This document shows, one piece after another, positions 22 to 15,326 of a stretch of 32,438 bases of DNA. Positions within the stretch are counted from its first letter, which is position 1; each line of letters opens with the position of its first letter. Where the stretch lies: positions 1-32,438 of the forward strand of contig NZ_JQKD01000051.1 of assembly GCF_000745855.1 (NCBI RefSeq). Reading direction: 5' to 3'. This stretch comes from Xenophilus azovorans DSM 13620. GTDB lineage: Bacteria; Pseudomonadota; Gammaproteobacteria; Burkholderiales; Burkholderiaceae_C. The position numbers were made by a program, and so were the translations under genes. Under the pieces are notes generated by a model that saw nothing but the letters and a program-made list of their open reading frames with translations, was not told the DNA's origin and did not search any database.

Positions 22-996
22 TCAAGCGATCTTGACCGCCTGGTGGAGAGTCGGATCGAAGGTTGCGCGGTTTTTGAACAGGCTGAAGGCCACACGCACG
101 AGCTTGCGGGCCAGCACCACCAGGGCTGCCGTGCGCGGCAAGCCCTTGGCGATCTCGCGCGCATAGACCTCGCGCCAGGCCGCCGTTCGGGACGCGGACA
201 TCGCCGCATTGAACATCAGCCGCCGCAGCTCGGCCGGCCCGCGCTTGGACAGCCTGCGCACACCCCGCTTGTGGCCCGAGTCCATCGGGCGCGGATCCAG
301 CCCGGTGAAGGCCACCACCGCGTCAGCGCTCGCCTGAGCCAGGCGTGTGAACAGCACGAGCAGGGCCGCGCCGCTGAGCGCCCCCACGCCCGGCACCGAG
401 GTGATGCTGCCCAGCGCCTGCTGCGCGCCCTGGATGCCTTGGGCCACCTGGGCGATGCGCTTGTCCAACGTCTGCAGTACCTGTGTCAGGGGCAGCATCA
501 CCTGGGGCAGCAACGCCCGGGTCACCGGGTCCTCGCCCATGCTCTGGCGCAGCGCGCCCTGGTGACGCACCAGCGCCGCTCGTCGGCGCAGCAGGCTGTC
601 CAGTTCGGCCAGCGCCGGGGGCACGGGCTGCCAGCTGCGCAACTGCGCGTGCTCATGGGCCAGGTAGCGGGCAATCACCTGCGCATCGAGCCGGTCGGTC
701 TTGCCGCGCTGGCCCACGCCTCGCGCGTAGTGGCTCACATCCCGCGGATTGAGCACATGCACCTGCAGCCCCTGAGCGTGGGCCAGGCGCGCCAGCAGCA
801 GGTGGTAGCGGCCGGTGGACTCCATGGCCAGGCACGAGCCCGGCGGTACCTGCGCCAGCCATTGCGCGATGGCCGGGGCGTTGTTGGCGATGCGCCGCAC
901 GCCGGCCTTGTCGCCGTGCACGGCAATGTCCAGGTGGGTGCTGGCCACATCGGCCCCAAGATGCCAGATCGTCTGGCTTGTCAGCCTGGGATGCAT
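22..996 (-). mobile_element. IS110-family transposase (DEDD recombinase)
   Basis: The 324-residue product has the two-part layout of IS110 transposases. The N-terminal RuvC-like DEDD domain shows D16 (GADVAST), E59 (AMESTGRY) and D101/D104 (KTDRLDAQ). The C-terminal domain has an SVPGVG helix-hairpin-like motif near residue 200, then GLDPRPMDSGHKRG with the likely catalytic serine S240. Family knowledge: these enzymes act with a bridge RNA made from the element's non-coding end. I start at the ATG at 996, because the open frame further upstream (to 1242) encodes nothing family-like and the MHPRL start gives normal family length. Only 21 bases follow the stop before the window edge, so the downstream element end is not defined. 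It appears intact. Confidence 0.93.
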
Positions 997-1219
997 GGTG
1001 ACAATGCAAAGGCCGGGGCGGGGCTCGTGCAACGGCGTCAGCTTGCAGGCATCGGCGCTCGCCAAGGCGGCGCCGGGTTCCTTATCGACGCTCGGTGCAA
1101 GGGTGGGACGTTGCTCAGTGGGTGGGTCGATGCCTCTACATCGCCCAGGCCTGTCGATGTCCCTCCACCCCGGCGCCTTGCCCTTTCTCCAATGGTTGTT
1201 GCGGTGGCAAAACCATACA
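997..1219 (-). ncRNA. Non-coding 5' region of the IS110 element, candidate bridge RNA
   Basis: This stretch upstream of the transposase has no convincing gene. In the IS110 subgroup the long non-coding end upstream of the transposase encodes the bridge RNA that pairs with donor and target DNA, so this is where one would lie. I see a hairpin at 1192-1216 (ATGGTTGTTGC, loop GGTG, GCAAAACCAT; one bulged base), but I have not traced a full bridge RNA fold or the exact element end. The call rests on position, not on a recognised RNA sequence. Confidence 0.3.
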
Positions 1220-1255
1220 AGCCTGTCGAAGCCCGCTACCACGCTTCGACAGGCT
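1220..1255. repeat. REP-like palindrome, possible terminator of the kgu operon
   Basis: A perfect 13-bp inverted repeat, AGCCTGTCGAAGC (1220-1232) and GCTTCGACAGGCT (1243-1255), encloses a 10-base loop. The right arm continues as GCTTCGACAGGCTCAGC, a sequence I recognise as a dispersed intergenic repeat in Burkholderiales genomes. It begins about 40 bases past the stop of the last operon gene. On the minus strand the stem is followed by TTGTATGGTTTTG, so it could end transcription, although the T-run is imperfect. Confidence 0.6.
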
Positions 1256-5801: not shown

Positions 5802-5936
5802 GTGTCGATTCCGCGGCGAGCGCAGCGAAGCCCCTCCGGGTGCACTCGCGGAGCCGGCTTTGCCGGGCCGCCGAGTGCGCCCCCTTGAGGGGGGATTCGG
5901 CTACACGAAGTGAGCAAGAAACGGGGGTGGGTCAGT
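5802..5936. repeat. Intergenic palindromic element between binding protein and ATPase genes
   Basis: The gap holds nested inverted repeats. GCACTCG (5842-5848) pairs with CGAGTGC (5872-5878) around an inner hairpin CCGGC (5854-5858), TTT, GCCGG (5862-5866). A second hairpin, CCCCC (5880-5884), TTGA, GGGGG (5889-5893), follows. Its wording (GCGAGCGCAGCGAAG, CCCCTTGAGGGGG) resembles GC-rich palindromes scattered between genes in Comamonadaceae. Being downstream of the binding-protein gene, it is well placed to stabilise the upstream transcript segment or attenuate the downstream one. Confidence 0.65.
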
Positions 5937-6722
5937 TCAGAACTTCGGGAAGTCGCTCTTGAGCCACTTCTGGTAGAGCTTGTTCAGCTCGCCGTTGGCG
6001 GTGTTCTTCGCGACGAACTCGTTCACGTTCTTCAGCAGGTCGTCCTGGCCGGGGCGCATGGCGATGGCCATGGCCTGCTGCACCAGGGTGAACTTGTTCT
6101 CGAAGGTGCCGGCCGGCACGCGCTGGGCGATCTGCGCCGCCACCGTCACCGAGCAGCCGATGGCATCGACCTGGCCGGAGATCAGCGCCTGCATGGCCGA
6201 GGCGTCGTCGTCGAAGCGGCGGATCTCGGTGCCCTCGGGCGCCGACTTGGTGACGGCCACGTCCTGCGTGCTGGCGCGGGCCACGCCCACGCGCACGCCC
6301 TTGAGGTCGGCCGCGCTCTTGATCGCCGCGTCCTTCTTGCCGTAGAGCACGATGGTCGCGGCCGCGTAGGGCTGGCTGAACTGCACCTGCTTGGCGCGCT
6401 CGGGCGTGACGGCCAGCGAGGCCACCAGCAGGTCGACCTTGTTGGTCAGCAGGAAGGGGATGCGGTTGGGGCCGGTGACGGGCACGATGTTGGCCTTCAC
6501 GCCCCAGTCCCTGGCCAGCAGCTTGGCCACGTCGGCGTCGTAGCCGTCGGGCTGGTTCTGCGCGTTGGTGGTGCCGTAGGGCGGGAAGTCCACCAGCATG
6601 CCGATGGTGATCTCGCCCTTCTTCTTGATGTCGGCCACGGTCTGGGCCGAGGCCAGCGGAGCGAAGGCGGTGGCGCAGGCGGCCAGGGTCAGGGCCAGGG
6701 TGGCGCGGCGGGTGAAGGTCAT
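5937..6722 (-). CDS. Periplasmic solute-binding protein, SBP_bac_3 family (sugar-acid candidate)
   Basis: The 261-residue protein begins with a Sec signal peptide (FTRR, hydrophobic core, cleavage near ASA-QT at 26/27), then the family's bilobed fold opening at DIKKKGEITIGMLVDFPPYG. The start ATG at 6722 is preceded by a good ribosome site (AAGGAGA). R109 in AVTPERAKQVQFSQPY matches the Arg that binds the substrate alpha-carboxylate in amino-acid receptors. The Asp that binds the alpha-ammonium group (second D in the GRxDAxxxD pattern) is S191 here (GQVDAIGCS). That fits a carboxylate without an amino group, such as 2-ketogluconate. The ligand is inferred from this and from the operon. Confidence 0.9.
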   Translation of the reverse strand: MTFTRRATLALTLAACATAFAPLASAQTVADIKKKGEITIGMLVDFPPYGTTNAQNQPDGYDADVAKLLARDWGVKANIVPVTGPNRIPFLLTNKVDLLVASLAVTPERAKQVQFSQPYAAATIVLYGKKDAAIKSAADLKGVRVGVARASTQDVAVTKSAPEGTEIRRFDDDASAMQALISGQVDAIGCSVTVAAQIAQRVPAGTFENKFTLVQQAMAIAMRPGQDDLLKNVNEFVAKNTANGELNKLYQKWLKSDFPKF

Positions 6723-6760
6723 GCGGGGTCTCCTTGGGTTGAGTCGGGATGGGGAAGGGT

Positions 6761-7414
6761 TCAGCGGGCCAGCGCCTGGGCGCGCCGGCGCTCCATGCGC
6801 GCCGCCAGCAGCGACAGCGGCCAGCAGATCGCGAAGTAGATAGCGGCCACGGTGGCGAACACCGGCAGCGGCTGGAAGGTGGCGTTGTTGATGATCTGGC
6901 CGGCCCGCGTGACCTCGGTGAAGCCGATGATGGCCGCCAGCGAGGTGCCCTTGATGATCTGCACCAGGTAGCCCACGGTGGGCGGCAGCGCGATCTTGAA
7001 GGCCTGCGGCAGGATCACGTCGCGCATGCGGGCCGCATACGAGAGGTTGAGCGCCTGCGCCGCCTCCCACTGGCCGCGCGGGATGGCCTCGATGCAGCCG
7101 CGCCAGATCTCGGCCAGGAAAGCGGCGCTGTTGAGCACCAGCGCGATGCCGGCGGCGATCCACGGGTTGATGTCGAAACCCAGCACCGGCGCGCCGAAGA
7201 AGATCAGGAACAGCTGCAGCAGCAGCGGCGTTCCCTGGAAGATCTGGATGAAGCCGCGGGCCAGGCCGCGCGCCGCGGCGTTCTCGGACACGCGGGCCAG
7301 CGCGGTCGCCAGCCCCAGCACGGCGCCACCGGCGAAGGCGATGGCCGACAGCGCCAGCGTCCACTGGGCCGCTTGCAGGATGAACAGGAATTCGGGAAAG
7401 CCGAAGGTGCGCAT
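6761..7414 (-). CDS. ABC importer permease (HisM/GlnP type), second subunit
   Basis: The 217-residue inner-membrane protein has about five hydrophobic helices. The cytoplasmic EAA loop (EAAQALNLSYAARMRDVILPQA) near residue 120 docks the ATPase. The N-terminal GxxxTLALSxxAFxxGxxLG-like pattern and the QGTPLLLQLFLIFF stretch are typical of His/Glu/Gln/Arg/opine permeases. It lies 19 bases after the first permease and 38 bases before the binding protein, and pairs with the 7434-8105 product as a heterodimeric channel. Confidence 0.92.
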   Translation of the reverse strand: MRTFGFPEFLFILQAAQWTLALSAIAFAGGAVLGLATALARVSENAAARGLARGFIQIFQGTPLLLQLFLIFFGAPVLGFDINPWIAAGIALVLNSAAFLAEIWRGCIEAIPRGQWEAAQALNLSYAARMRDVILPQAFKIALPPTVGYLVQIIKGTSLAAIIGFTEVTRAGQIINNATFQPLPVFATVAAIYFAICWPLSLLAARMERRRAQALAR

Positions 7415-7433
7415 GATGGTCGTCTCCTTCGGC

Positions 7434-8105
7434 TCAGCGGCGGTCCGGGTAGTGAAGGAGGTGCTGGTAGACCAGCTTGAACAGCGCCGAGAAGGCCAGC
7501 GCCAGCGCCAGGTAGATGCCCGCCACGACGATGTAGATCTCGAAGCTCCGGAAGGTCTGCGACTGCAGGTTGGCCGCCACCGAGGTGAGGTCGTCCGCCG
7601 AGATCACCGACACCACGGCCGAGCTGAGCATCAGCAGGATGAACTGGCTGGTCAGCGCCGGGTAGATGGCCTTGAGCGCCGGCTTGATGACGATGAAGCG
7701 GAAGATCTCCCAGCCCTTGAGATTGAGCGCGCGGCCCGCCTCGATCTGCCCCTTGGGGATGGACTCGATGCCGGCGCGGATGATCTCGGTGGCGTAGGCG
7801 CCCAGGTTGACGACCATTGCCGTCAGCGCCGCCGTGTAGGGCGACCAGCGCAGGCCCACCGCCGGCAGCGCGAAGAAGAAGAAAAACAGCTGCACGAGGA
7901 AGGGCGTGTTGCGGATCACCTCGATGTAGGCGTTGACGATGAAGCGCAGCCACGCCGGCCCCGAGGTCTTGCCCCAGGCGCACAGCACCGCCACCGCCAG
8001 CCCGATGAGCGTGGCGGTGAGCGAGAGCTGGATGGTGATCCACGTGCCCTTGAGCAGCAGGGGCCACGCGGCGAACACGGCATCGAACTGGAACTGGTAA
8101 TTCAC
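7434..8105 (-). CDS. ABC importer permease (HisQ/GlnP type), first gene of the kgu operon
   Basis: The 223-residue inner-membrane protein has about five hydrophobic helices. The EAA loop reads EAGRALNLKGWEIFRFIVIKPALK, with NTPFLVQLFFFFFALP in the preceding core. It is the promoter-proximal gene of the minus-strand operon: its start lies 50 bases from the PtxS-type operator. Its partner is the 217-residue permease. As with the other importer subunits, the family would predict an amino acid, while the operon predicts ketogluconate. Confidence 0.92.
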   Translation of the reverse strand: MNYQFQFDAVFAAWPLLLKGTWITIQLSLTATLIGLAVAVLCAWGKTSGPAWLRFIVNAYIEVIRNTPFLVQLFFFFFALPAVGLRWSPYTAALTAMVVNLGAYATEIIRAGIESIPKGQIEAGRALNLKGWEIFRFIVIKPALKAIYPALTSQFILLMLSSAVVSVISADDLTSVAANLQSQTFRSFEIYIVVAGIYLALALAFSALFKLVYQHLLHYPDRR

Positions 8106-8149: not shown

Positions 8150-8179
8150 AGTGTATGAAACCGGTTTCAGTTGCGTCGA
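8150..8179 (-). promoter_or_regulatory. Probable kgu operon promoter around the PtxS operator
   Basis: On the minus strand, TCGACG (8174-8179; 4 of 6 matches to TTGACA) and TACACT (8150-8155; 4 of 6 to TATAAT) are separated by 18 bases. The operator fills most of that spacer, a common place for a LacI-type repressor to block RNA polymerase. The hexamers are weak matches, so the exact promoter is uncertain. Confidence 0.5.
8156..8169. promoter_or_regulatory. PtxS-type operator TGAAACCGGTTTCA
   Basis: The 14-base sequence is a perfect palindrome. It equals the motif established for PtxS binding in front of kgu and related glucose-pathway genes in Pseudomonas. It lies 51-64 bases upstream of the first importer permease, and the operon's last gene encodes a PtxS-like repressor. 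I noticed no second perfect copy when reading the rest of the window. Confidence 0.85.
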
Positions 8180-8452: not shown

Positions 8453-8773
8453 ATGAAGCTCAGCCATCTGATCTCCGGCCTGGCCATCGCTGGGCTCGCC
8501 AGCACCCCTGCGCTGGCCCAATCGAATACCAACGGCGCCCCGGCCTCTCAGGCTCCCCAGGCGACCCAAACCACCCCGGGCGCGCAAGCCGCGCAAGGGG
8601 CCCGCGGCGGTCTCACCACCGGCGAGGCAGTCGGCCTGGGCGTCGGAGGCAGCGTCCTGCTCGCGACGGCCCTCGGCGGCGGCAGCGGCAACCGGGGCTT
8701 CTTCTTCCTGCCTCCCACCGGCACGACGGGCACCACGGGCACGGGCACCGGCTCCACGGGCACCACGCGCTGA
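8453..8773 (+). CDS. yjbE: YjbE-like small exported protein of the exopolysaccharide operon
   Basis: The 106-residue product has a clear Sec signal (MKLSHLISGLAIAGLASTPALA, cut before QSN). A Gln/Ala/Thr-rich low-complexity stretch follows, then a short glycine-rich hydrophobic segment (GLGVGGSVLLATALGGG, about 61-77) and a Gly/Thr tail made of GTT/GTG-type repeats. E. coli YjbE has the same design, a tiny exported protein with an LAATGGG-like segment and a Thr-rich tail, and likewise precedes yjbF. Its molecular role is unknown. The stop shares one base with the next start (TGATG), so translation is probably coupled. Low complexity makes homology weak; the identity rests on architecture and gene order. 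Confidence 0.7.
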   Translation: MKLSHLISGLAIAGLASTPALAQSNTNGAPASQAPQATQTTPGAQAAQGARGGLTTGEAVGLGVGGSVLLATALGGGSGNRGFFFLPPTGTTGTTGTGTGSTGTTR

Positions 8774-9546
8774 TGCGGCGCGCCCTCCTGCGTGAGGGCT
8801 GCCGACCGCCGGCCAGCCGCATCGGGCTGACCGTTCGCACCCTGGGATGCTGCACGCTGGCGGCATCCCTTCTCGTTGCCGGCGGGTGCACTTCGGGTGG
8901 CCGCGCCCTGCTGGCCACGGCGTCGCACATGTATGGCGACGCATCCGTCGAAGCATCTTCGCCGCCACAGAACTCGCAGCTCAACTTCAACTATTTGCGC
9001 GCCCATCTCGGCAAGCGCGAGATCTACCTCGCGCTCGGCTATGTCGATCCGCTGCCCGAAGGCCCCACCGAGGTGTGGTACAGCGGATCCGGCGAGGTGC
9101 TGCGCATACGACAGGGAAGGATCGTGGGCACCACAGGCCTCACCACCGATTGGCGTGCCGTGCGCTTTTCATCAACCAGGCCTTCGTGGGCCGCGTTGGC
9201 AAGCCGCCCGGACATGCCCGTGCGCTTCACGCGCGAACGCGACCTCATGCCCGGCTACCGCTTCGGCGTGCGGGACGAAGTGCGCGTGACGGCCATCGCG
9301 CCCCCGGCACGCAGCCGGATGGCGCAGCAGCACGCGGCGCCCGTGCAGTGGTTCGAGGAAGGCAGCACCACCGTCCCCGCCAGCGACGCGCTGCCACCGG
9401 CGCGCTTCGCCGTGACGCGCGTCGACGACGGCGGCGAGCCCCAGGTGGTGTATTCCGAGCAATGCCTCACCCGGGACCTGTGCCTGAGCCTGGAGCGCTG
9501 GAAACCCGCGCCCGCCGGCGAGGCAGCGGCGGCCACCGGTTCATGA
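8773..9546 (+). CDS. yjbF: YjbF/GfcB-family outer-membrane lipoprotein
   Basis: The 257-residue protein has an N-terminal hydrophobic segment ending in a lipobox-like LVAGGC, with the lipid-bearing Cys at residue 39. The mature part matches the YjbF/GfcB layout: LNFNYLRAHLG, then an LALGYVDPLPEGPTEVWYSGSGEVLRI block and a later ERDLMPGYRFGVRDEVR segment. In E. coli this family is encoded in the yjbEFGH and gfc (group 4 capsule) operons and acts at the outer membrane in polysaccharide production, mechanism unknown. The leader before the hydrophobic core is long, so the true start may be downstream. The end overlaps the next gene as ATGA. Confidence 0.85.
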   Translation: MRRALLREGCRPPASRIGLTVRTLGCCTLAASLLVAGGCTSGGRALLATASHMYGDASVEASSPPQNSQLNFNYLRAHLGKREIYLALGYVDPLPEGPTEVWYSGSGEVLRIRQGRIVGTTGLTTDWRAVRFSSTRPSWAALASRPDMPVRFTRERDLMPGYRFGVRDEVRVTAIAPPARSRMAQQHAAPVQWFEEGSTTVPASDALPPARFAVTRVDDGGEPQVVYSEQCLTRDLCLSLERWKPAPAGEAAAATGS

Positions 9547-12500
9547 CGCGCACCGGTCCGTCGTCCGCGCCCCACCCCCTGCGTCTTGGCACCATGGCCA
9601 CGGCTGCCGCCCTGTTCGCACTCGCCGGCTCCGCCGCAGGTGCCGCGGAGCCTGCGCACGCAAGCGACGCCGCGCAGCTCACCGGCCATCCGGCGGACAT
9701 CCGGCCGGGCGAACGGCTGAGCCGATGGCTGCTGCGCCAGCCGGACGGGCAGCAGGTCGCCAACCCCGGCCTGGCCTGGCAGATACGCGACGAGGAATTC
9801 GCCCAGCGGCACCTGAAGAACACGCTGCTGGTGCAACTGGAAGCCTGGGTGCAGGAGGCCCGCTCCGGGCCCGAGCGCAGCGACCGCGAGCGCCTGCGCG
9901 CCTGGATCGACAGCCTGCCCGTCACCGGCCGCGTGGCGCTGGGCATCGTCGATCCGCGCTGGCTCGAGGCCAACCCCACGGAAGACCCGGTCCTCGGCGC
10001 GGGCCAGCGGCTCGTGCCCTCGGCCTGGCCGCTGCGCAGCGTGGCGGTGGTCCTGCCCGACGGCCGCCTGTGCCGCGTGGCGCACGAACCCGGCCGCAAC
10101 GTGCTGGACTATCTGGCCGCCTGCGGCCTGCAGGACCAGGCCGACCAGGCGTGGCTGGCCCAGCCCGACGGCCGCACCTCGCGCATGGGTGTCGCGCCCT
10201 GGAATGCCGGCCCGGTGGACGAGCCCGCGCCCGGCGCCTGGCTGTGGGCGGCGCCGCGCCGCATGCGGCTGCTGGACGGCCTGTCCGAAGGGATGATCAA
10301 GTTCCTGGCCACCCAGGGGCCGTCGCCGCAGGAAGACGGCGCATCGGCCGCGTCGGCAGCACCCGGCCAGGCCGCGCGGCTGCCCGAATCCGCCGCCGCG
10401 CAGCCGCGCACGCTGGACGTCAGTGCCAACGACTGGGGCGAAATCGGCCTGCTGCAGACGCCCACGGCCCGCATGGAACAGGCCGGCAACCTGCGCGCGA
10501 CGCTGAGCAACGTCTATCCGTACAGCCGCCTCAGCTTCATGTTCCAGCCCTTCGACTGGATGGAAGGAGGCTTTCGCTACAGCTCCATCTCGAACCGCAT
10601 CTACGGCATCACCGACCAGCAGTCCTACAAGGACAAGAGCATCGACCTGAAGCTGCGCCTGCTCAAGGAGTCCGCCTACGTGCCCCAGGTGGCGCTGGGC
10701 TTCCGCGACTTCGGCGGCACCGGCCTGTTCTCCAGCGAATACCTGGTCGCCAGCAAGCGCTGGAACGACTTCGACTTCAGCCTCGGCATCGGCTGGGGCT
10801 ACATGGCGCGCAGCGGCAACATCCGCAACCCCTTCCGGCTGTTCGGCGACCGCTTCGCCACGCGCCCCACCGACTTCACCACCGGCCAGGCCAGCCTGAG
10901 CACGCTGTTCCGCGGCCCCGCCGCGCTGTTCGGCGGCGTGCAGTGGCGCACGCCCTGGGACCCGCTCACCCTCAAGATCGAATACGACGGCAATGACTAC
11001 CGGAGCGAGCCCTTCGACAACCGGCAGCGCCGCCGCTCCCCGATCAACGTGGGGCTGAGCTACCGCGTCTCGCCCGGCGTCGTGCTGTCCGCCGGCTTCG
11101 AGCGCGGCGACAGGGTGATGGTGGGACTGAGCCTGTCGAGCAACCTGGCCCGCTCGTCGATGCCCAAGGTGCTCGACCCGCCGCTGCCGCGCCTGGGCCC
11201 GCAGGCGCCGCTGCACCCGCCCGGCTGGGCCGTGACGGCCGCCGCGATCGAGGAGCAGACGGAGTGGACCGTGACCCACATCGCCCCGCAGGGCGAGGCG
11301 CTGCACGTCTGGGCCACCGAGGCCGACGCCACCTACCGCGACGCCCGGGCGCAGCGCGCCGCGGCGGTGCTTCACGCCGCCGCGCCGGAGAACATCCGCC
11401 GCTTCGTGCTGCACTTCAGCGAGCGCGGCCTGCCCAGCCATGCCCGTGTGATCGAGCGCGCCGAGTGGGTGACGCAACGCCTCGTGCCCCTGCTGCCGCG
11501 GCAGGCGCGCGTGCCTGCATCGGAGGACTACGGGCCGGCATCCACCCATGCCACGCCGGACGATCTGCCCGCATCGGTGCGTGCCCCGGCCGGCGCGGGC
11601 GAAGCAGCCGATGCGGCCGGCGCGGGTGCCGCTGCCGCCACCGCGTCAGCCGCCGGCAGCGTGCCCCAGGGCCTGCCGGGACACACAGGCGCCGACGGCG
11701 TGTGGACGCGCCAGCGCGACCGGTTCACCTGGGGCGTGGGGCCGTACTTCAGCCCCATCGTCGGCGGGCCCGACGCCTTCGTCCTCTACCAGCTCGGCCT
11801 GCAGGCCTCGGCCGAATACCGCTTCAGCGAGCGCACCTGGCTCAGCGGCGCCGTCAACATGCGCCTGGTCGACAACTTCGACAAGTTCACCTACACCGCG
11901 CCCAGCAACCTGCCGCGCGTGCGCACCTACCAGCGCGAATACGTCACCTCCGCCCGGGTGACGGTGCCCAACCTGCAGTTGACCCACGTCGGCCAGTTCG
12001 CGCGCGACCACTACTACAGCGTCTACGGCGGCCTGCTGGAGAGCATGTTCGCCGGCGTCGGCGCCGAATACCTGTACCGCCCCTGGGGCAGCCGCCTGGC
12101 CTTCGGCGTGGACATCAACCGGGTGCGCCAGCGCGGCTTCAAGCAGGACCTGAGCCTGCGCGACTACGAGGTCACCACCGGCCACGCCACCGTGTACTGG
12201 GACACCGGCTGGCACGGCGTCATCGCCCGCATCGCCGCCGGCCAGTACCTCGCAGGCGACCGCGGCGTGACGCTGAGCATCGCCCGCCGCTTCGACAACG
12301 GGCTGGTGATGGGCGCCTATGCCACCAAGACCAACGTGTCGGCCGAGCAGTTCGGCGAAGGCAGCTTCGACAAGGGCATCTACATCTCCGTCCCGCTGGA
12401 CGCCCTGCTGCCCCGCTCGACCAAGTTCTCCGTCGGCTTCCAGTGGAACCCGCTCACCCGCGACGGCGGGGCGCCGCTGGCGCGCAGCCAGCAGTTGTAC

Positions 12501-12608
12501 GAGCTGACCTCCGGCGCCGACCGGCAGGCCTTCCGCGCCGGGCCGCCGACGCAGAGCCCGCCGCGCAGCGGAGACAACCTCCTGAACTTCGAGAACCACC
12601 CGCGCTGA
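9543..12608 (+). CDS. GfcC(YjbG)-YjbH fusion, outer-membrane exopolysaccharide protein
   Basis: The 1021-residue protein starts at the ATG overlapping the yjbF stop; the open frame further upstream belongs to no recognisable protein. A signal peptide covers about 1-35. Residues 45-255 resemble GfcC/YjbG: LSRWLLRQPDGQ, a charged helix, VALGIVDPRWLEANP, then a ubiquitin-like-fold region VAVVLPDGRLCRVAHEPG. A Ser/Ala/Pro linker (about 256-292) leads to a YjbH-type domain beginning WGEIGLLQTPTARMEQAG near 298 and running to the end. It is rich in alternating Tyr/Trp/Gly strands of an outer-membrane barrel. E. coli encodes these two parts as separate proteins of about 250 and 700 residues. Residues of about 670-720 form an Ala/Pro-rich insert. 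Role: export or finishing of polysaccharide at the outer membrane, inferred. Confidence 0.85.
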   Translation: MTRTGPSSAPHPLRLGTMATAAALFALAGSAAGAAEPAHASDAAQLTGHPADIRPGERLSRWLLRQPDGQQVANPGLAWQIRDEEFAQRHLKNTLLVQLEAWVQEARSGPERSDRERLRAWIDSLPVTGRVALGIVDPRWLEANPTEDPVLGAGQRLVPSAWPLRSVAVVLPDGRLCRVAHEPGRNVLDYLAACGLQDQADQAWLAQPDGRTSRMGVAPWNAGPVDEPAPGAWLWAAPRRMRLLDGLSEGMIKFLATQGPSPQEDGASAASAAPGQAARLPESAAAQPRTLDVSANDWGEIGLLQTPTARMEQAGNLRATLSNVYPYSRLSFMFQPFDWMEGGFRYSSISNRIYGITDQQSYKDKSIDLKLRLLKESAYVPQVALGFRDFGGTGLFSSEYLVASKRWNDFDFSLGIGWGYMARSGNIRNPFRLFGDRFATRPTDFTTGQASLSTLFRGPAALFGGVQWRTPWDPLTLKIEYDGNDYRSEPFDNRQRRRSPINVGLSYRVSPGVVLSAGFERGDRVMVGLSLSSNLARSSMPKVLDPPLPRLGPQAPLHPPGWAVTAAAIEEQTEWTVTHIAPQGEALHVWATEADATYRDARAQRAAAVLHAAAPENIRRFVLHFSERGLPSHARVIERAEWVTQRLVPLLPRQARVPASEDYGPASTHATPDDLPASVRAPAGAGEAADAAGAGAAAATASAAGSVPQGLPGHTGADGVWTRQRDRFTWGVGPYFSPIVGGPDAFVLYQLGLQASAEYRFSERTWLSGAVNMRLVDNFDKFTYTAPSNLPRVRTYQREYVTSARVTVPNLQLTHVGQFARDHYYSVYGGLLESMFAGVGAEYLYRPWGSRLAFGVDINRVRQRGFKQDLSLRDYEVTTGHATVYWDTGWHGVIARIAAGQYLAGDRGVTLSIARRFDNGLVMGAYATKTNVSAEQFGEGSFDKGIYISVPLDALLPRSTKFSVGFQWNPLTRDGGAPLARSQQLYELTSGADRQAFRAGPPTQSPPRSGDNLLNFENHPR

Positions 12609-12630
12609 ACACGCCCCACGCCCGCCCAAG

Positions 12631-13074
12631 ATGAAATCCGTCCTCGTCGTGTGCATCGGCAACATCTGCCGCAGCCCCATGGGCCAGGTCCTGCTCGCGC
12701 AGGCCCTGCCGGGCGTGTCGGTGTCGTCCGCCGGCACGGGCGCGCTGGCCGGCCATCCGGCCGATGCCGCCGCGCAGGCGCTCATGGCCCGGCGCGGGCT
12801 GGACCTCGGCGCCCACCGCGCCCGCCAGATCAGCCCGGAGTTGTGCCGGCAGGCCGACCTCATCCTGGCCATGGACGACACGCAGCGCCGCCACATCGAG
12901 GCGCTCTACCCGCCCGCGCGGGGCCGCGTCTTCCGCCTGGGCCACGTCGCGCAGGTCGACGTGCCCGACCCCTACCGCCAGGGCCAGGCCGCCTTCGAGC
13001 AGGCGCTCGAACTCATCGACGCAGGCGTGCAGGCCTGGGCCGAACGCATCCGGAAGATCCAGTCACCATCATGA
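12631..13074 (+). CDS. wzb: Low-molecular-weight protein-tyrosine phosphatase Wzb
   Basis: The 147-residue protein carries the phosphate loop CIGNICRS with nucleophile C8, R14 and S15, and the general-acid loop DPYR with D113. The length is normal for Wzb/Etp. It dephosphorylates the tyrosine tail of the Wzc kinase, letting Wzc cycle between assembled and disassembled states during polymer synthesis. wzc starts within its stop codon (ATGA), as expected for a matched phosphatase-kinase pair. Cytoplasmic. Confidence 0.95.
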   Translation: MKSVLVVCIGNICRSPMGQVLLAQALPGVSVSSAGTGALAGHPADAAAQALMARRGLDLGAHRARQISPELCRQADLILAMDDTQRRHIEALYPPARGRVFRLGHVAQVDVPDPYRQGQAAFEQALELIDAGVQAWAERIRKIQSPS

Positions 13075-15326
13075 ACACCCTCTCCGCCTCCACCGTTCCG
13101 CCCGCCACGCCGCAGGCCGCCGCCCCGTACGGCGACCACGACGACATCAACCTGATCGAGTACGTCGACATCCTGATCGACCACAAGTGGTGGATCGCCG
13201 GCATCACCGCATTGGCGCTGGCCCTCGGGGTGGCCTACACCCTGCTGGCCACGCCGATCTACCAGTCCAACCTGCTGGTGCAGGTGGAGGACGCGGCGCC
13301 CGACACCAAGAGCTTCCTGGGCGACGTCTCCAGCCTGTTCGACGTCAAGACGCCGGCCACCGGCGAGATCCAGGTGCTGCAGTCGCGCATGGTGCTGGGC
13401 GCCGCCGTGGACCAGACCCGGCTGTACATCGACGCCCAGCCCCGCTACCTGCCGCTGGTCGGGCGCTGGCTGGCCCACCGGGCCGACGGGCTGTCCACCC
13501 CCGGCCTGCTGGGCCTGGGCGGCTACGTCAACGGCACGGAGCGCATCGAGGTCGCCCGCATCGACGTGCCCGAGGCCATGGAGGACGACGAGCCCTTCAC
13601 GGTGACAGCCGAGGGCGAGGGCCGCTACATCCTGCGCCACGACCTGCTGGACGCTCCCCTGCACGGCACCGTGGGCCAGCTGCTGGAGCAGGACCTGGGC
13701 GGCGGCGAGCGCATCGCCGTGCTGATCGAGCGGCTGGACGGCCAGCCGGGCGCGCAGTTCACCGTGCGCCGGGCCTCGCGCCTGCGGACGATCGAGGACC
13801 TGCAGGCGCGCCTGCAACTGGCCGAGCAGGGCCGCCAGTCCAACGTGATCAACGTCTCGCTGCAGGACGGCAGCCGCGCCCGGCTGGTCCGCATCCTGAA
13901 CGCGATCGGCGAGCAGTACGTGCGCCAGAACGTCGAGCGCAAGGCCGCCGAGGCGGAGAAGACGCTGGTCTTCCTCAACCAGCAGCTGCCCGAGTTCCGG
14001 CGCCAGCTCGAGACCTCCGAGGACGCCTTCGCCAGCTTCCGCAAGAAGAACGGCACCATCGCCTTCGACGAGGAAGCCAAGGGCGTGCTGAGCCAGACCG
14101 TCGACCTGCAGACCAAGCTGCTGGAAGCCCAGCAGCAGCGCCGCGAGACGGTGGCCCGCTTCACCGACCGCAACGTGCGCGTGCAGACCATCGACCGCCA
14201 GATCGCCGCCGTGCAGAAGGAGATCGACGGGCTGGAGGGCCGCGTGCGCCGCATGCCGGCGATCCAGCAGGAGGCGCTGCGCCTGGAGCGCGACGTGCGG
14301 GTGAACGCCGAGCTGTACCAGTCGCTGCAGAACAACGCGCTGCAGATGCGCCTGGTCAAGGAGGGCAAGACCGGCAACGTGCGCCTGCTGGACAAGGCGA
14401 CGACGCCCAAGGACCCCGTGAAGCCGAAGAAGGCGATCGTCATGGCCACCATGCTCGCCCTGGGCCTGCTGGCCGGCGCGGTGCTGGCCATCGTGCGGGC
14501 GCGCTTCCTGCGCGGCGTGAGCGACCCGCAGGAGATCGAGGCCCACACCGGGCTGAGCGTCTACGCCACCGTGCCCTACGCCGCCGACCAGTCGGCGCTG
14601 GACCTGCGCGTCGACGCCGGCGTCCAGGGCGTCCAGCTGCTGGCGGAGCACCAGCCCGACAGCCAGCCCATCGAGGCGCTGCGCAGCCTGCGTGTGGCGC
14701 TGCAGTTCGCCGGCCTGGAGGCGGAGAACAACCGCATCCTGGTCACCGGCCCCACGCCGGGCATCGGCAAGAGCTTCATCTCGGCCAACTTCGCGGCCAC
14801 CCTGGCGCATGCCGGCAAGCGCGTGCTGCTGATCGACGCCGACCTGCGCAAGGGCCACCTGCAGAAGCTGCTCGGGCTGCCGCGCGAGGGCGGCCTGTCG
14901 GAACTGCTGTCGGGCGACCTGACGGCGCAGCAGGCCGTGCACGCGGGCGTGCTGCCCAACCTGGACGTGCTGACCACCGGCAGGCTGCCCGTCAACCCGG
15001 CGGACATGCTGATGTCCGACACTTTCGTGCGCATGCTCGACACCCTCTCGGCCGCCTACGACACGGTGATCGTCGACACGCCGCCCGTACTGGTGGCGGC
15101 CGACACCGCCGCCGTGGCGCCGCACTGCGGCGTGGTGCTGCTGGTCGCGCGCGCGGACCAGACGCAGATGGGCGAGCTCAACGAAAGCGCGCGCCGCCTG
15201 GCGCAGGGCGGCAAGCGCGCGAGCGGCGTGGTGTTCAACGGCATGGACCTCACGCGCCGCCACTACGGCAGCTACGGCTACCGCTACGGCGGCTACCGCT
15301 ACGCGGAATACAAGTACAAGACCTGA
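13071..15326 (+). CDS. wzc: Polysaccharide co-polymerase and tyrosine autokinase Wzc
   Basis: The 751-residue protein combines a Wzz chain-length domain with a BY-kinase. TM1 is about 40-60; a long periplasmic coiled-coil-rich part follows (heptad-like 290-430); TM2 is about 455-475. The cytoplasmic kinase has Walker [11 protein letters not shown] near 560, Walker A' [10 protein letters not shown] near 586 and Walker [10 protein letters not shown] near 667. The last 20 residues hold eight tyrosines (732, 735, 737, 739, 742, 744, 747, 749), the autophosphorylation cluster. The start overlaps wzb. Partner proteins are Wza (29448-30611, opposite strand) and Wzb. The tail is encoded partly by a 13-base direct repeat at 15276-15288 and 15291-15303. 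Confidence 0.95.

Follow-up and report, generated by a model that had tools for sequence, protein, structure and literature searches.

The kgu operon of Xenophilus azovorans DSM 13620 is headed by an ABC importer built from amino-acid-type subunits, which stands in the place that the MFS carrier KguT holds in Pseudomonas, and its gene content, operator and conservation make it very probable that this importer is a carrier of 2-ketogluconate. It would then supply the 2-ketogluconate importer that has likely been missing in the Comamonadaceae and their relatives. The importer's periplasmic receptor belongs to a well-supported clade that we regard as a more interesting finding than the Asp to Ser change by which the receptor first drew attention, a change that is real but belongs to a larger branch.

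An ABC importer at the head of a kgu operon

The window (the whole stretch analysed, 32,438 nucleotides) contains the operon on its minus strand, with all importer-operon ORFs intact. The gene for permease A (8105-7434) has a GTG start and is followed by that for permease B (7414-6761); the two proteins score 100.6 and 99.5 bits, respectively, with TIGR01726 (HEQRo_perm_3TM, cut-off 42.2) and both match PF00528. The 261-residue receptor (SBP_bac_3, 6722-5937) scores 125.7 bits with PF00497 (cut-off 26.4), a value obtained with seven additional upstream residues in the query, and the ATPase (5801-5034) matches PF00005, with GlnQ as its best NCBIfam match at 319.6 bits, below the cut-off of 379. 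PF00497, PF00005 and both occurrences of TIGR01726 are all above their cut-offs, which is the composition of a PAAT importer and agrees with a preliminary description of this DNA that assigned the four subunits to the polar-amino-acid uptake family. The interval given there for the four, 5937..8105, holds the permeases and the receptor but leaves out the ATPase.

Downstream of the importer genes lie homologues of kguE, kguK, kguD and ptxS, all present and in that order. The kguE product (5031-4282), named by homology and by gene order relative to kguE loci, is a TIM-barrel protein scoring 25.3 bits with PF01261, below the cut-off of 31.1. The kguK gene (4291-3332) encodes a PfkB-type kinase (PF00294, 196.5 bits) that is 54-58% identical to its counterpart in 15 of the 16 KguT-type gamma loci, the match being absent in the sixteenth (L222). 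The D-2-hydroxyacid dehydrogenase KguD (3306-2326; PF02826 and PF00389) is 48-54% identical to the KguD of these 16 loci, and the PtxS-like LacI-family regulator (2329-1295; PF00356 and PF13377) is 40-43% identical to the product of the gene in the ptxS position. Overlaps join kguE to kguK and kguD to ptxS, and the gaps in the importer part measure 19, 38, 135 and 2 bp. The tight spacing described previously does not extend to the 135 bp that separate receptor and ATPase genes (5802..5936). A dispersed intergenic repeat (5810-5930) lies there, and at least 39 other matches to it occur elsewhere in the genome; the RNA fold of this gap is unremarkable (z -1.77). A scan for sigma-70 promoters upstream of the first gene returned no match.

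The operator TGAAACCGGTTTCA lies at 8156..8169, 50 bp upstream of permease A and hence of the entire operon. It matches the PtxS-type site exactly, with 0 mismatches, against a chance expectation of 0.03 at up to two mismatches, and allowing one mismatch reveals no second copy anywhere in the genome. The same 14-mer is given as the PtxS site of Pseudomonas, and 2-ketogluconate as the PtxS effector, in passages of PMC11678583 and PMC5902321. The importer thus shares one operon with kguE, kguK, kguD and a PtxS-type operator, as had been proposed. Compared with the Pseudomonas kgu operon (kguE-kguK-kguT-kguD, with PtxS as repressor), kguE, kguK, kguD and ptxS homologues are common to both and the 14-bp palindrome is identical; here, however, the ABC importer replaces KguT and comes first, and the operator precedes a permease gene instead of kguE.

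Importer and KguT across kgu loci

A survey of importer versus KguT in kgu operons was anchored on KguE. Taking the genome of X. azovorans into account in each case, KguE was found in 28 of 250 genomes of the family, 7 of 300 of the order and 24 of 398 of the phylum; of the other 27 family genomes, 10 fall outside the neighbourhood count. The 123 loci compared comprise 80 from named genomes, 40 that were fetched and 3 lacking kguE, the named and unnamed sets overlapping in part. The loci from named genomes are the top 80 among 194 KguE relatives and hence mostly near kin, which we count against the importer reading. The importer was found in 94 of the 123 loci, KguT in 19, neither in 7 and both in none, with 3 loci cut by a contig end, so that the importer does appear to take KguT's place, as first supposed. 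The named set contributed 75 importer loci, the 3 cut loci and 2 with neither carrier; the first fetched set 15 with the importer, 3 with KguT and 2 with neither; the second fetched set 16 with KguT, 1 with the importer and 3 with neither; and all 3 loci of the set lacking kguE have the importer, the arrangement ABC-kguK-kguD-ptxS without kguE being seen in L174 and L175. Sixteen of the KguT loci come from another order-level part of the class (families f55 and f58), their KguT being 70-75% identical to the L125 reference, and three from family f32 of the same order. The operon in the window holds no MFS carrier KguT, and the best MFS protein of the genome is 32% identical to that of L125.

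Among the 91 loci in which permease A was found, 84 have an exact copy within 300 bp of it, 5 the 12-bp core and 2 neither; the latter (L123 and L173) also count against the importer reading. Each of the six f55 loci, probably Pseudomonas, carries two exact copies of the 14-mer. No 12-bp core occurs in the stretch fetched for ten f58 KguT loci or for L124 and L125, and L127 has a single core site distant from the operon.

Among the loci with neither carrier, two from Variovorax (L054 and L080) keep kguE and kguK with no importer nearby, a further point against the importer reading; in L054 an exact operator stands about 100 bp upstream of kguE. Three others (L126, L206 and L219) have kguE with neither importer nor KguT. 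In L136, inspection by eye places an AroE-like gene and then a TRAP-type receptor gene after kguD, from 10663, and L225, from the same genus, has by eye a similar layout; neither locus has an ABC importer or KguT, and a TRAP carrier is therefore possible in these two operons.

Receptor residues

The receptor positions of note are R87, A104, R109, R149, D173 and S191, in a predicted model with a pLDDT of 91.8. R109 and the Ser at 191 are as previously described, in both numbering and identity. In the alignment with AncCDT-1 and AncQR, the counterpart of S191 is the conserved Asp and that of A104 is Thr. By alignment, the receptor has neither the Asp at LAO position 161 nor the Ser or Thr at LAO position 72, two columns that we take to be the usual amino-acid pocket positions. 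The usual ammonium site is thus altered at A104 as well; Thr is found at this position in 9 of 9 paralogues from the same loci, and among kgu receptors Ala occupies position 104 in 89 of 89 and Ser position 191 in 88 of 89. Besides lacking an acid in the column of LAO Asp161 and having Ala in that of LAO Ser72, this receptor differs from importers of the HisJ, LAO and GlnH type by the additional invariant arginines R87 and R149. The N-R-I-P stretch with Arg87 is shared with glutamate/aspartate receptors of the GltI type (a label taken from the motif) in all four such controls, which nonetheless differ in having Asp at 191, Thr at 104 and His at 173, and in lacking Arg at 149.

The loss of the acid at 191 had been read as telling for 2-ketogluconate, an argument from a single residue that proves insufficient. 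Of 36 control PF00497 loci (sets of 7 and 29), 10 fall within the receptor clade described below; in the remaining 26, column 191 holds an acid in 14 (13 Asp, 1 Glu) and none in 12, with L005, L008, L263 and L264 aligning poorly. These 12 represent about four independent families, since seven of them are close orthologues and a further three make up another set. Within the clade itself the acid is missing in every row, including receptors next to ureide genes. The Asp to Ser change is compatible with a ligand that lacks an amino group, but does not single one out. In another, separate family of receptors from the genus (L246 and L249-L254), columns 191 and 104 are occupied by Gly and Tyr, respectively.

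A receptor clade with three invariant arginines

The receptor tree comprises 64 rows, left from 83 sequences once 19 near-duplicates or poorly aligned controls had been taken out. The window receptor falls within a 48-row clade (support 100/99) in which arginines 87, 109 and 149 are invariant and an acid at column 191 is found in 0 of 48. This last count is subject to alignment doubt in four receptors, where a shift could alter the call: L184 has Asp one residue past the column, L187 and L189 have Asp two past it, and one L233 receptor has Glu two past it. Seven kgu receptors form a subclade (100/96) nested in a group of 13 (99/98) with L230 and five receptors from more distant genomes, three of which adjoin LacI-type and D-2-hydroxyacid dehydrogenase-like genes. 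The remainder of the clade consists of an 8-row subclade with sugar-acid neighbours (100/99), a 25-row subclade (100/99) in which some members adjoin purine or ureide genes, and L123 and L232, which stand apart.

The importer in the kgu operon of L123 also comes from this branch, yet it and the window type are not sisters. The kgu label requires two changes on the tree, and one change suffices in 0% of 200 bootstrap trees. The simplest reading of this phylogeny would be two separate recruitments of the branch into kgu operons, the alternative being a single early gain of the association followed by losses.

The context labels of these subclades are our own assignment, and many clade members have no telling neighbour. 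Among the eight sugar-acid rows, L148/L176 and L244 bear the label firmly; it is suggestive in L241, L242 and L236, weak in L185, where a PfkB kinase lies at a distance of 4.8 kb, and without basis in the two L233 rows. L176, the same place as L148, is flanked by galactarate/altronate dehydratase domains, an SDR and a gluconolactonase-type protein; L244 by a 2-dehydro-3-deoxyglucarate aldolase (above cut-off) and a 3-hydroxyisobutyrate-dehydrogenase-type protein; L241 by a RuBisCO-like protein and a kinase nearest to 3-oxo-isoapionate kinase (below cut-off); and L242 by an RpiB-type isomerase and a protein nearest to tartronate semialdehyde reductase (below cut-off). In the ureide subclade three rows are firmly labelled, each by an enzyme above cut-off: an allantoicase for L182, a xanthine dehydrogenase subunit for L183 and an allantoate amidohydrolase for L192. 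For L180 and L189 the label was given by eye or is weaker. The remaining 20 rows are unlabelled, and two of them, L177 and L179, lie by eye near amino-acid-type enzymes.

Column 173 separates the two sides of the clade: all 23 rows outside the ureide subclade have Asp or Glu there, and none of the 25 rows inside it has an acid (Asn in 23, Pro in 2). This split was noticed after the tree had been built, and serves therefore as a hypothesis and not as a test. Since some close relatives of the receptor adjoin sugar-acid genes, the sugar-acid branch postulated at the outset is plausible, but the clade is broader than then claimed and extends to receptors next to ureide genes. We give about even odds to the proposition that this branch of SBP_bac_3 serves carboxylates without an alpha-amino group instead of amino acids, with an acid at the D173 position on the sugar-acid side and Asn on the ureide side, and that kgu operons drew on it twice. 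Members of the clade are annotated under names like polar amino acid transport system, and our results suggest that this common amino-acid label is wrong for one receptor branch. The pattern of R87 and R149, no acid at 191 and an acid or Asn at 173 provides a short test for the branch. A literature search, with subscription journals mostly outside its scope, returned no paper on such an ABC importer for 2-ketogluconate or sugar acids, and none describing a receptor clade with three invariant arginines and a split at residue 173.

Substrate and proposed mechanism

The kgu genes function in 2-ketogluconate catabolism in Pseudomonas, where PtxS responds to this compound, according to passages of PMC6237876, PMC11678583 and PMC5902321; in the latter two, KguK is described as 2-ketogluconate kinase and KguD as 2-keto-6-phosphogluconate reductase. 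In the periplasm, the receptor would close on 2-ketogluconate, with R109 probably contacting the carboxylate and R87, R149 and D173 probably the remainder of the ligand; at the expense of ATP, the two permeases and the ATPase would carry the sugar acid inward. KguK would then phosphorylate it and KguD reduce the product to 6-phosphogluconate, as reported for Pseudomonas, and the PtxS-like repressor, if its effector is that of Pseudomonas, would silence the operon from its operator until 2-ketogluconate enters. No gluconate 2-dehydrogenase subunit (PF13618), the sole enzyme type sought, was found in the genome; we count this against the importer reading, and 2-ketogluconate may consequently have to come from outside. 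Scavenging from other producers would fit.

A neighbouring sugar acid as the importer's substrate, be it gluconate, 5-ketogluconate or another, in place of 2-ketogluconate or alongside it, seems to us unlikely. Receptors of the same clade do adjoin genes for other sugar acids, and sequence cannot tell specificity among them, but the kinase and reductase of the operon are those assigned to 2-ketogluconate and its phosphate in the Pseudomonas accounts just cited, and the importer excludes KguT, the 2-ketogluconate carrier, across loci. Less probable still is that an amino-acid uptake system of the usual kind shares the operon by chance. Although all the subunits belong to amino-acid-type families and the nearest solved structures are mostly amino-acid receptors, chance sharing is at odds with the conservation of the importer in over three quarters of the kgu loci to the exclusion of KguT, with a PtxS operator heading its genes, with the second, non-sister case in L123, and with the loss of both usual ammonium-site residues throughout nearly all kgu receptors. 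Transport of 2-ketogluconate thus stands as our preferred reading.

Other features of the window

By eye, an IS110-type transposase-like ORF (22-1242, minus strand) adjoins the ptxS-like gene. On the other side of the operon, an exopolysaccharide-like cluster (8773-15326, plus strand) encodes, again by eye, an outer-membrane protein and a Wzc-type tyrosine kinase, together with a low-molecular-weight tyrosine phosphatase (nearest NCBIfam models below cut-off) at 12631-13074.
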